Assembly (NCBI GenBank): GCA_018819135.1
Contig: JAHJQK010000192.1
Span: 1 to 64,000, forward strand
Source: Pseudomonadota bacterium
GTDB lineage: Bacteria > Desulfobacterota > SM23-61
Length of the DNA: 64,000 bases
Direction of reading: 5' to 3'
Shown here: positions 5,810 through 19,926 of the stretch, one piece after another
Layout: each line of letters opens with the position of its first letter
Numbering within the stretch: position 1 is the first letter of the stretch
Program-made: the position numbers and the translations under genes
The notes under the pieces: generated by a model
The model's input: the letters and a program-made list of their open reading frames with translations, nothing else
Told to the model about the DNA's origin: nothing
The model's database searches: none

Positions 5810-5886
5810 GGGCGATTAGCTCAGATGGATAGAGCGTTGGTCTCCGGAACCAAAGGCCGTGGGTTCGAATCCCGCATCGCCTACCA
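5810..5886 (+). tRNA. tRNA-Arg (anticodon CCG)
   Basis: Cloverleaf readable by eye: GGGCGAT...TTGGT-CTCCGGA-ACCAA...GTGGG-TTCGAAT-CCCGC-ATCGCCT-A-CCA. Confidence 0.92.
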
Positions 5887-7003
5887 AAGATTTCAAGGGG
5901 TTAGCAATAACCCCTTTTTCATTTTCGGCTTTTGGTGTCAGAATAGTGCCAAACTCTTTTGGTTTCCCCTCTTTCAGCAACCTTGCGGCGGGAGGGATAA
6001 TGTCATCAAGAAGCCTTACCGCTCCTTGGAGTTGCTCCGGGGATAGGTGGGTATAGCGTTGCGTCATCTTGATGTCCTTTTGCCTCAGGAGTTCTTGAAG
6101 GGCTCTCATGTGAACGCCTCTCATAGCCAAATGGCTTGCGTAGGTATGCCGTAGGTCATGGAACCTGAAATTCTCTATCCCTGCCTTTCTGCAGGCCGTT
6201 GCAAAGCTTCTTTTCACATCTCCCAAGTGCTTACCCCGGGCATTCAAGAAAACAAACTCTGAATCTCTTGGGAGATCACTCAAAGCGCCCAATAGGGTGT
6301 TATTCATGGGAATGATTCCGACGGTGTTATTCTTGGTATCCGGCAAGAGGATAAGGCGGTTGTCCGGCTTTATGTAGTTCCATTTTAAGCCAAGGATTTC
6401 GCTCTTCCTCATCCCGGTTGTCAGGGCCACAGTGATAATAGCTCGGAGAGAATGCGGCGGTTCCGGGCAATAGGCCAGAAGGTTATTGATTTCCTCCAGG
6501 GCGAGGTATCTCAAACGCCCGGGAGGTTCTTTCAATTTAGGGACGGCCTTGATTGGATTTGACTTGATCCTTTTCCACGTGATGGCTGTGTTGAGAAGGT
6601 GCTTAAGGCAGGCCACTTCCCGGTTGACCGTGGCGTTACATACTCCTTCCGAAAGCCTCTTGGTTTGATAACTAAAAATCTTGTGGGGAGCGATGTTAAA
6701 TAAATATTCTTTCCCGAAGTAAGGCACCAGGTGAAGATTGACGGAGACTTCATCCCGGATGTAGGTGCAGAGCTGCGTTGAGTTCTTTTTGTGGATCAGA
6801 TATTCTTTGGCGAACTCCCCCAGGGTAACTTTTTCATCTTCAATGATCCCGTGTTCCTCCAGGGTCAAATCGGAAAGCTTCTTATTGAGGATTTTTCGGG
6901 CATCGTCTTTTACGGTGCCGATCTTCTCCCGCTTCCTCTGCCCCTGGAAGATGATGTCCGTATAATAATTTTTTCCTCTCTTATAGATTCTACCCCAGGC
7001 CAT
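5816..7003 (-). CDS. tyrosine recombinase/integrase
   Basis: TTGMRKSEILGLKW, FHDLRHTYASHLAMRGV, LLRQKDIKMTQRYTHLS; 3' end runs antisense through the tRNA. Confidence 0.95.
   Translation of the reverse strand: MAWGRIYKRGKNYYTDIIFQGQRKREKIGTVKDDARKILNKKLSDLTLEEHGIIEDEKVTLGEFAKEYLIHKKNSTQLCTYIRDEVSVNLHLVPYFGKEYLFNIAPHKIFSYQTKRLSEGVCNATVNREVACLKHLLNTAITWKRIKSNPIKAVPKLKEPPGRLRYLALEEINNLLAYCPEPPHSLRAIITVALTTGMRKSEILGLKWNYIKPDNRLILLPDTKNNTVGIIPMNNTLLGALSDLPRDSEFVFLNARGKHLGDVKRSFATACRKAGIENFRFHDLRHTYASHLAMRGVHMRALQELLRQKDIKMTQRYTHLSPEQLQGAVRLLDDIIPPAARLLKEGKPKEFGTILTPKAENEKGVIANPLKSLVGDAGFEPTAFGSGDQRSIHLS
5839..5886 (+). repeat. attachment site, tRNA-proximal
   Basis: GGTCTCCGGAACCAAAGGCCGTGGGTTCGAATCCCGCATCGCCTACCA repeated exactly at 19879-19926. 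Confidence 0.92.
5897..5919 (+). terminator. Rho-independent terminator downstream of tRNA-Arg
   Basis: GGGGTTA-GCAA-TAACCCC-TTTTT. Confidence 0.75.
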
Positions 7004-7096
7004 TTTTTGCCTCCTCTGTATCCTCTGTGTTTTAATAGAAAGGGCAATGGGCCAGCCAGAGGAGAACTGGCCCGACGCCTGCGCTGGCGCTGCCCC

Positions 7097-7321
7097 TTAA
7101 TCGTTACCTAAGAAACTGTATCCGGCCCGTTCCAGGGCTTCCACTTCCTCGCCGGTAGCCGTAATGATCTCATATTGGCCTAAACTGGCCTCTAAAACTC
7201 CCACAGGCTCGCCCTCAATCAATAAAACGGCCTGGCCATAGGAAGAGCTCGGGTGTTCCGTGGAAATTGTGGCCTCACCTTCCCAGCCCTCCAATAATGG
7301 CGAATGTGATTTAAGCCTCAT
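7097..7321 (-). CDS. small hypothetical protein
   Basis: Co-directional ORF within element operon. Confidence 0.5.
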   Translation of the reverse strand: MRLKSHSPLLEGWEGEATISTEHPSSSYGQAVLLIEGEPVGVLEASLGQYEIITATGEEVEALERAGYSFLGND

Positions 7322-7335
7322 TTTCCCCCCCTCTC

Positions 7336-7572
7336 TTATTCCTCTTCGATTCCAAGAGCTCTTTTAAGATTTTTAGCATCTTCTCTTCTTTGTTCCCTTC
7401 TTTCTTTAATTTGTTCCTCTGCTTCCCGGGTCAGAGCAAAACCACTAAGGTCTTCGGGGTCGTGAGGAAGTTGCTCGGGGTCCATTCGGCGGATAATAAT
7501 TTTCTCGTTCCCTTTAACCTGCCCCTTTTTCTTGGGGGCCTTTCCTTTTTTCTCACCCTTGATCTTTGACAT
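7336..7572 (-). CDS. small charged hypothetical protein
   Basis: Co-directional ORF adjacent to excisionase-like gene. Confidence 0.5.
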   Translation of the reverse strand: MSKIKGEKKGKAPKKKGQVKGNEKIIIRRMDPEQLPHDPEDLSGFALTREAEEQIKERREQRREDAKNLKRALGIEEE

Positions 7573-7790
7573 TACCTTCCCCCTTTCTTTTTGGGCGCTT
7601 TCTTCGCCTTTTTCGGCTTATCATTCCTATGACTCTTGACCCATTTGACCAACTCTTCCGGATCGAAGAGGCGGCGCTTGCCGACCTTGTAATTGGGAAT
7701 TTCCCCCCGAGCAATAAAGCGATTGATCGTTTGTCTGCTAAGACTTAAAAGATTCATTGCCTCTGAAAAAGTGATAAATTTTTTATTCAT
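7572..7790 (-). CDS. excisionase-family HTH protein
   Basis: ITFSEAMNLLSLSRQTINRFIARGEIPNYKVGKRRLFDPEELVKWVKSH. Confidence 0.85.
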   Translation of the reverse strand: MNKKFITFSEAMNLLSLSRQTINRFIARGEIPNYKVGKRRLFDPEELVKWVKSHRNDKPKKAKKAPKKKGGR

Positions 7791-7880
7791 TGTTTTCCTT
7801 TCTATGCCTTATTGTACCATATTAAAAAACCTTGTCAAGCCTAAAAATGAGGGGTGGAAAAAATATTTTGTCTACTCATC

Positions 7881-18178: not shown

Positions 18179-18182
18179 TGAG

Positions 18183-18557
18183 TCAATCTCTCCAGAGGTC
18201 GGAAGTAAACGCCTCCATGCAGGTAAGGCACCCATCAATGAGAATTTTATTTTCAAGAAGGACCGCCCCCTTATGAAACTGCAAAGAATGGGTCCATTTA
18301 TGCCCGCCCTCACAAAAGAAAGTTAGCTCCACCCGGGCGCCCCGACCGGATGGGTTCCCGGCTTGGACCTTTGTCCCGTGAGAATCAATGCAAGTGATTT
18401 CCCCTTTGCGATTGACTTCGACGGCCTGCATATGAACTTCCTGGCACTTACAGAAAGGGCACTCAAGAATGTTCGTTTCCGGTACGGCTTCCTGGTTCTC
18501 TTTAAGTTGCCGAAAAACCCTCTGGAGAATGGATTTTACATGCTCTGGTTCGCTCAT
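18183..18557 (-). CDS. zinc-binding hypothetical protein
   Basis: CPFCKC and FFCEGGHKW motifs; start trimmed to MSEPEH. Confidence 0.45.
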   Translation of the reverse strand: MSEPEHVKSILQRVFRQLKENQEAVPETNILECPFCKCQEVHMQAVEVNRKGEITCIDSHGTKVQAGNPSGRGARVELTFFCEGGHKWTHSLQFHKGAVLLENKILIDGCLTCMEAFTSDLWRD

Positions 18558-18561
18558 GGAC

Positions 18562-18747
18562 TTACTCCTTCCCCTGCAAGGCCCGCAAAATCTCTTCCCA
18601 TTCCTCCGGCTCAAGCTTCCGCAAGCCAGCCTCCACGCGGTAAATGAAGTTCTGGGATTTCCCGATGCGGCGACCGAGCTCAGTTTGAGTTATCCGCTTG
18701 GGCTTGTAGAAAAATCTCAATGCTGGTAAATGTTCCGTGGGTAACAT
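18562..18747 (-). CDS. XRE-like HTH protein
   Basis: ITQTELGRRIGKSQNFIYRVEAGLRKL. Confidence 0.7.
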   Translation of the reverse strand: MLPTEHLPALRFFYKPKRITQTELGRRIGKSQNFIYRVEAGLRKLEPEEWEEILRALQGKE

Positions 18748-18868
18748 CGGCTATCCTTCCTTTTATTGACCTTTAAATATTTTAAATATAGGTTATATAA
18801 AGAAGGATGTCGGTATTATCAAAAAAGGTTTTGATAACACACCGGAGAGGCTTAACAGTGGCGGGTTT

Positions 18869-19624
18869 TCAATTCTTGGAGCGTTTTTTCTTTGAAATAA
18901 TGAGATATTTGTATTCCAGATTTTTAGATTTTTCTGCCCAATCGGAAAACTGTTGGCAGATTGCCTTTCTCGATTCCGTCGAAAGGTGCTTTATCTTTTT
19001 AATGGGGGGGGCAAGATCCTTTTTCCGGTCAAAAAAGAATTTCCTGAAATTTTCGAATTCAAAAGATGGAAACCAATGGAGAGGGACGCCCCACCTTATC
19101 CAATCCAGCCCCCCGCGCCTGGAACCCATGATGGATTCCACCACGTCGTCGAGGGGGGTGGAATATTGAAACGTCCGCATCGCTTTTGCCGGAAGGGTTT
19201 TACTCCCCGTTAGATCGTCAATATCAGGAAGAATATACTCCGTTGTTTGTTTTTTAAAGGCCAAAACTAAATTTATTGCCTGGTCAAAACTTTTCAGTTT
19301 AAGGACTTCTTTTAAGACGCAAACCTCCATTACCAAAATATAGTCGCGTTCTCTATATAACGCGTTTTCCAAAGATGAAGGGAAAAGGCCAAAGGCATCA
19401 TCGAGTGATTTTGAATTTTTATATGGGAAAGAAAAATTCGAGTCTAAGTATATTTTGAATTTTTCAAAGAGATAGGTTTTAACCCATGATGGTTCGGGGA
19501 GATTTTTTTCGTAGGCATATACAAAGCGGGCGATAGCATTTAGAAAGGCCTGGCTTCGGTCCATTCTTTGATGTTGTAATTTGGAATTATTTTTCTTGTG
19601 TTTTTTTGATTTTAGTTTTTCCAT
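18869..19624 (-). CDS. hypothetical protein
   Basis: 251-aa co-directional ORF at distal end of element. Confidence 0.5.
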   Translation of the reverse strand: MEKLKSKKHKKNNSKLQHQRMDRSQAFLNAIARFVYAYEKNLPEPSWVKTYLFEKFKIYLDSNFSFPYKNSKSLDDAFGLFPSSLENALYRERDYILVMEVCVLKEVLKLKSFDQAINLVLAFKKQTTEYILPDIDDLTGSKTLPAKAMRTFQYSTPLDDVVESIMGSRRGGLDWIRWGVPLHWFPSFEFENFRKFFFDRKKDLAPPIKKIKHLSTESRKAICQQFSDWAEKSKNLEYKYLIISKKKRSKN

Positions 19625-19878
19625 TTCGTGTTCTCCTCACGATCTCCAAAAAGGTAGAGGGTCGAGGCTGGCTGGAGAATGCCAGGTTTCGGGTCGCGTT
19701 CCCTATCGACCCCCCGCAAGATTAAATTTTTAGTGCCAAAATAGTGTCATCGTTTTAGGTTTTTAGTCAATAATTATTGAATCATTCATCTTTTTCAAAA
19801 TATCAGTTTCAGCCAGTAAAATCAAGGGTAAAAATGATGTTTTAAGTTTTTATATTTGTTAAATATATTAACGTTTTA

Positions 19879-19926
19879 GGTCTCCGGAACCAAAGGCCGT
19901 GGGTTCGAATCCCGCATCGCCTACCA
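19879..19926 (+). repeat. attachment site, distal copy of tRNA 3' fragment
   Basis: Exact 48-bp copy of 5839-5886. Confidence 0.92.

Follow-up and report, generated by a model that had tools for sequence, protein, structure and literature searches.

A 14-kb element integrated at a tRNA-Arg gene encodes its own large terminase without recognisable virion genes and is probably a phage satellite

In contig JAHJQK010000192.1, within the 64,000-nt stretch that was analysed as a whole (the window), we found an integrated element of 14 kb (5,887-19,926) that encodes a complete large terminase subunit (TerL) and a candidate small subunit (TerS) and in which no portal, capsid, tail or lysis gene could be recognised. 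We put the probability at about two in three that this element is a phage satellite that encodes a complete packaging motor itself and depends on a helper for procapsids and tails. This reading draws on exact attachment (att) repeats at a tRNA gene, on intact TerL motifs and on two sister elements without detected capsid genes. It also draws on a cassette common to elements that differ in replication genes, integrase and insertion site, on low ratios of nonsynonymous to synonymous substitution (dN/dS), on compactness, on two congeners that have the tRNA gene and left flank with no element behind them, and on the presence of a portal and a head protein in the nearest real phage.

An earlier note, made from the same DNA, had placed the element between att repeats, and its borders are as follows.

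5810-5886, plus strand: tRNA-Arg (CCG) gene predicted by ARAGORN, whose 3' 48 bp (5839-5886) are attL
19879-19926, no strand: attR, the second and exact copy of the 48-bp direct repeat

The two copies lie 14,040 bp apart. The element has an integrase and att sites of its own, as is general for phage satellites. All element genes described here lie on the minus strand, coding density is approximately 90%, ribosome-binding sites are clear for most genes, and none of the recognised genes is broken. The GC content is 47.0%, compared with 48.2% for the remaining window. In both congeners, the tRNA gene and left flank are kept (about 81-97% at the DNA level, in pieces), and the element is not found behind the tRNA gene.

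The packaging genes form a compact cassette, listed here in the direction of transcription.

15081-15113, minus strand: conserved non-coding terS leader, GTAAYCCTATRGTACAYAAGG
14601-15080, minus strand: TerS candidate, 91% identical in the sister element on contig C22
13058-14632, minus strand: TerL (PHROG 9, 8.3e-47; PF20441, 1.9e-10)
12840-13055, minus strand: h71, a small cassette protein, 51% identical to its counterpart in the C22 sister element
12143-12817, minus strand: h224, 24% identical to a 239-aa sister-element protein in the same position
11640-12092, minus strand: h150, helical and partly disordered, the last conserved cassette gene, 47% identical to sister-element L004:2628-3074

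The TerL motifs (Walker A, APKKSGKT; Walker B, ASFDELW; nuclease Asp 306, 367 and 447) are intact, and their residues are invariant across seven aligned TerLs. The possible small terminase of the earlier note gained relatives, since it aligns with TerS-position proteins of the L011 locus (29%) and of a real phage, L031 (27%), but it has no family match of its own. Between the window and C22 elements, dN/dS is 0.15 for TerL and about 0.10 for TerS, showing that both genes are under purifying selection; for h150 and h224, synonymous sites are saturated between the two elements. The terS leader sequence occurs in the element's own genome solely before the two terS genes (≤2 mismatches), and we regard it as a candidate packaging site or promoter.

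When all window open reading frames (ORFs) tested were compared with Pfam and PHROGs, no portal, capsid, tail or lysis family gave a convincing match, in agreement with the earlier note, and an incomplete set of virion genes is what is expected of a phage satellite. The only structural-category matches were weak ones, to a minor tail protein (E 0.028, h224) and to the RIIA lysis inhibitor (E 0.044, via a GHKL domain). TerL is followed by h71, h224 and h150, and not by the portal and major capsid protein that stand beside TerL in a complete temperate phage. Low-confidence AlphaFold models of h224 and h150 (mean pLDDT of 55 and 62, respectively) had no significant fold match, so the fold check that the earlier note had proposed for 11640-12092 and 12143-12817 left the absence of capsid genes unrefuted; for h251 (18869-19624), the check consisted of family searches. 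The unidentified ORFs are each about 250 aa or smaller, below the usual length of portals and of capsid proteins of the HK97 type. A further possibility, that a large ORF left unread encodes a capsid, was rejected because no such ORF exists.

We found a second element in the same assembly, on contig C22, where it lies at a tRNA-Pro gene between copies of a 52-bp repeat 14,940 bp apart, and a third (L010) in a metagenome-assembled genome of Syntrophaceae, at a tRNA-Ala gene between copies of a 53-bp repeat 14,916 bp apart. The C22 element agrees with the window element in the cassette (TerL, 77-79%; h150, 46-47%; TerS and h71 as listed above) and differs from it in having another replicase, a 30%-identical integrase, another insertion site and no topoisomerase (Topo) genes. 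The sister elements have no Topo genes, and TerS-TerL is the constant part. Long DNA similarity between the window and C22 elements starts 33 bases upstream of terS, and beyond terL, protein similarity runs through h150; given these limits, TerS-TerL-h71-h224-h150 looks like a cassette that has been exchanged between elements.

When 84,980 species genomes were scanned with a profile, the matches were L010, L011 (Desulfobacterales), L012, L013, L014 and two phage-like loci, and no further member was found in the element's own class (8 genomes) or in the class of genome G193 (23 genomes). Among the matches listed for 71 proteins of C22, L010, L011, L012, L014 and L032 (25 of the 27 Pfam families and the 25 most frequent of the 82 PHROGs), there was no portal or head protein. 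The search for syntenic relatives that the earlier note had called for thus showed that the closest relatives are elements of the same kind and not larger prophages. In L012, otherwise head-less, a 316-aa protein (L012:12887-13837) matches only the front part of tape-measure proteins; it is the only tape-measure-like protein among these matches and could be either the product of a decayed gene or a satellite protein related to tails.

In a TerL tree built by a quick method with support from the Shimodaira-Hasegawa-like approximate likelihood ratio test (SH-aLRT), the window, C22 and L010 TerLs form one clade (SH-aLRT, 100). This clade falls inside a group that also includes L011, L031 and L032 (99), and L011 pairs with L031 (99). 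L031 (IMG/VR 3300001687_000069) is a true tailed phage that branches just outside the clade; it resembles the window element in a related TerS and a 57%-identical TerL and differs from it in having a portal (PHROG 156) and a head protein (PHROG 334). From the position of this phage beside the clade, the packaging motor is of tailed-phage origin, and the placement of L011 beside L031 hints that such a motor was acquired possibly more than once. Among INPHARED phages, TerL identity reached at best about 21-25%. Scanning IMG/VR with a seven-sequence TerL profile returned 80 loci, while a single TerL sequence returned no match, and neither did an h150 profile or a terS-leader pattern. One of the IMG/VR loci, L057, combines within 8.0 kb a TerL, a primase, a PHROG 10 major head protein and a fragment of the integrase family and looks like a small capsid-forming satellite; another, L058 (13.3 kb), has two diverged tandem TerL blocks 6.4 kb apart (TerL and proteins of about 395, 82 and 238 aa).

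Phage-inducible chromosomal islands (PICIs) carry TerS and depend on the TerL of the helper. The window element is like PICIs and the Staphylococcus aureus pathogenicity islands (SaPIs) in size (about 15 kb), in having an integrase at an att site, its own replication genes and its own TerS, and in lacking portal and capsid genes, but it encodes a full TerL where theirs is the helper's, and its replicase differs; SaPIs combine their own TerS with helper TerL (PMC7567579). In capsid-forming PICIs (cfPICIs), head genes (capsid, protease and head-tail adapter) occur together with terminase (PMC10448857, PMC11389934). The window element shares the terminase genes and integrase with cfPICIs, but none of these head genes was found in it; the earlier note's view that known satellites usually carry only a small terminase or capsid-remodelling genes needs sharpening on this point. 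P4-like satellites and AH14b of Pseudomonas are similar in their integrase, primase, size (11-17 kb) and lack of structural genes, and no terminase was identified in AH14b (PMC4936722). The window element has a DnaB/Toprim-type primase-helicase instead of a P4-type primase, its match to AlpA is below threshold (E 0.082), and psu, delta and sid are not among the matches listed. Phage-inducible chromosomal island-like elements (PLEs) and phage-inducible chromosomal minimalist islands (PICMIs) are comparable in being integrated, compact and, as we propose here, dependent on helper heads; in PICMI115, homologues of terS, sid and ppi were not found (PMC10803314). In the open-licence literature, apart from the original VEIME, tycheposon and cfPICI accounts, we came across no satellite described as lacking capsid genes while encoding both TerS and TerL.

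Pfam and PHROGs searches bore out the integrase, excisionase, TerL, replication protein and primase-helicase of the earlier note, which had overlooked a pair of genes for TopoVI-like A and B subunits (7881-10564). The genes outside the cassette are listed here.

5816-7003, minus strand: tyrosine integrase (PF00589, 2.5e-33; PHROG 1, 1.4e-71)
7097-7572, minus strand: two small ORFs (74 and 78 aa) with no assigned role and no convincing match
7572-7790, minus strand: excisionase-like HTH_17 protein (HTH_17, 1.1e-12; PHROG 66, 5.8e-12)
7881-9269, minus strand: Topo VIII/TopoVI A-like subunit (PF21180, 1.4e-6; Toprim; NARQIYYAARP motif)
9266-10564, minus strand: Topo VIII/TopoVI B-like GHKL ATPase (TopoVI-B, PDB 2q2e, 3.7e-6)
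15248-15463, minus strand: second excisionase-like HTH_17 protein (HTH_17, 1.3e-6)
15468-16259, minus strand: replication initiator (PHROG 9474, 1.3e-17)
16400-18178, minus strand: primase-helicase with CHC2 zinc, Toprim and DnaB domains (PHROG 239, 1.2e-84; DnaB_C, 4e-24), its start most likely at ~18178
18562-18747, minus strand: Cro/CI-type helix-turn-helix regulator (HTH_3, 7.9e-8)
18869-19624, minus strand: h251, adjoining attR, no match in family searches

No defence system was matched, and the window element has no recognised gene for partition or mobilisation.

The A-like subunit has a Pfam Toprim match above its gathering score and the motif NARQIYYAARP, which we take to resemble the tyrosine motif of TopoVI-A/Spo11. 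The B and A genes overlap by 4 nt (GTGA), with a ribosome-binding site, AAGGAAGG, ahead of the second gene. Plasmid p11801_3 (15.4 kb) of Synechococcus elongatus PCC 11801 encodes their closest homologue as one fused ORF of 873 aa, to which A and B align consecutively, end to end (36% identity for the A half and 31% for the B half); a plasmid protein of Halalkalicoccus jeotgali, likewise fused (906 aa), shows weaker and partial homology. On these alignments, the pair is a split version of a fused, plasmid-borne Topo VIII-type enzyme; the plasmid homologues are called Topo VIII because of their fused B-A layout and the descriptions given in reviews. According to these reviews, Topo VIII occurs mainly on mobile elements and is mostly homodimeric (PMC8185306, PMC11302465). 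The window pair agrees with Topo VIII in its order (B, then A), in its GHKL ATPase and Toprim domains and in a tyrosine motif of the Spo11 type, but it is split into two overlapping genes, whereas most members are a single fused polypeptide, and it lies within a terminase-bearing element. To our knowledge, this would be the first Topo VIII-type enzyme in such an element. An assembly split of a fused gene was rejected on the basis of the ribosome-binding site and the clean GTGA overlap, although an indel is still conceivable. No other such pair was found in the genome or the sister elements, TopoA had no match among INPHARED phages, and scans of IMG/VR with single TopoA and TopoB sequences gave none.

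From this gene content, we infer the following course for excision, helper use and packaging. The element would sit in the tRNA-Arg gene and excise by means of its own integrase and excisionase, and its initiator and primase-helicase would replicate it while the Topo VIII-type pair would probably serve to relax or unlink its DNA in replication. When a helper phage grows, the element would make its own TerS-TerL motor, which would recognise satellite DNA and dock on the portal of helper-made procapsids, so that head, tail and lysis would be borrowed from the helper and the packaging motor would not. The cassette proteins h71, h224 and h150 may adapt motor or head to the helper. It is possible, if short of likely, that these elements form an unnamed satellite family whose constant core (a self-owned TerS-TerL pair with small cassette proteins) acts on foreign procapsids and is freely combined with replication modules, here one that includes a Topo VIII-type enzyme in split form. 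Most known satellites either redirect the helper motor with TerS only or, like cfPICIs, bring motor and shell. If our reading is true, the motor is exchangeable between elements and foreign procapsids, and a TerL without a portal beside an integrase is a new handle for finding hidden satellites in environmental genomes.

The earlier note had left two readings side by side, a packaging or hijacking strategy and a heavily deleted prophage, and the data favor the former. That the element is a cryptic remnant of a temperate phage, with head, tail and lysis genes lost and the terminase left over, would fit the phage-derived TerL, the branching of L031 beside the clade and the tape-measure-like fragment in the more distant relative L012. 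We nevertheless think it unlikely, because three elements at three tRNA genes have near-identical size and lack the same genes, and because the att repeats are perfect, the recognised genes are unbroken and TerL and TerS are under purifying selection. An integrative plasmid with an acquired terminase, mobile through replication, integration and accidental transduction and not through planned hijacking, would fit the location of the closest Topo homologue on a plasmid; plasmids, both free and integrated, are typical carriers of Topo VIII-type enzymes (PMC8185306, PMC11302465). The constancy of TerS-TerL in sister elements without Topo genes and the lack of recognised partition or mobilisation genes make this improbable. 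It is very improbable that h224, h150, h183 or h251 builds a small shell that escaped recognition: all four have no known relatives beyond the sister element and the models are of low confidence, but none is much longer than 250 aa, h150 and h224 are predominantly helical and without a fold match, and TerL motors need a portal, for which there is no unidentified ORF of sufficient size.

Several observations weigh against this satellite proposal. It is unusual for a TerL to occur apart from its cognate portal, and the portal of another phage would have to fit this one. Portals of PHROG 12 or PHROG 156 were not found in the element's own genome, and neither was a resident helper; the genome has just two PHROG 9 TerLs, both from these elements. 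With an assembly completeness of 94% and contamination of 8.5%, a resident helper may still exist, and an infecting phage is the simplest candidate for this role. Relatives are few, and the contig of L011 is truncated on the left. Apart from a repeat-like piece of 129 bp, the right flank lacks conservation in the two congeners, which makes them a partial demonstration of the empty site.

Near the right border, we also observed that 19966-20093 (86%) and, far from it, 59674-59815 (76%) match one stretch of the congener G002 just downstream of its tRNA-Arg gene, which suggests a dispersed repeat family. Within the element, the motif TGACACTATTTTGNCACT occurs before terS (15115-15132), near attR (19732-19749) and, with three mismatches, near the end of the integrase gene (5934-5951); 0.04 such repeats are expected by chance, and the motif is possibly a regulator binding site. 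Finally, a partial att-like sequence (15180-15207), 82% identical to attL and containing the palindrome GGTTTCGGAAACC, lies between terS and the neighbouring HTH_17 gene.
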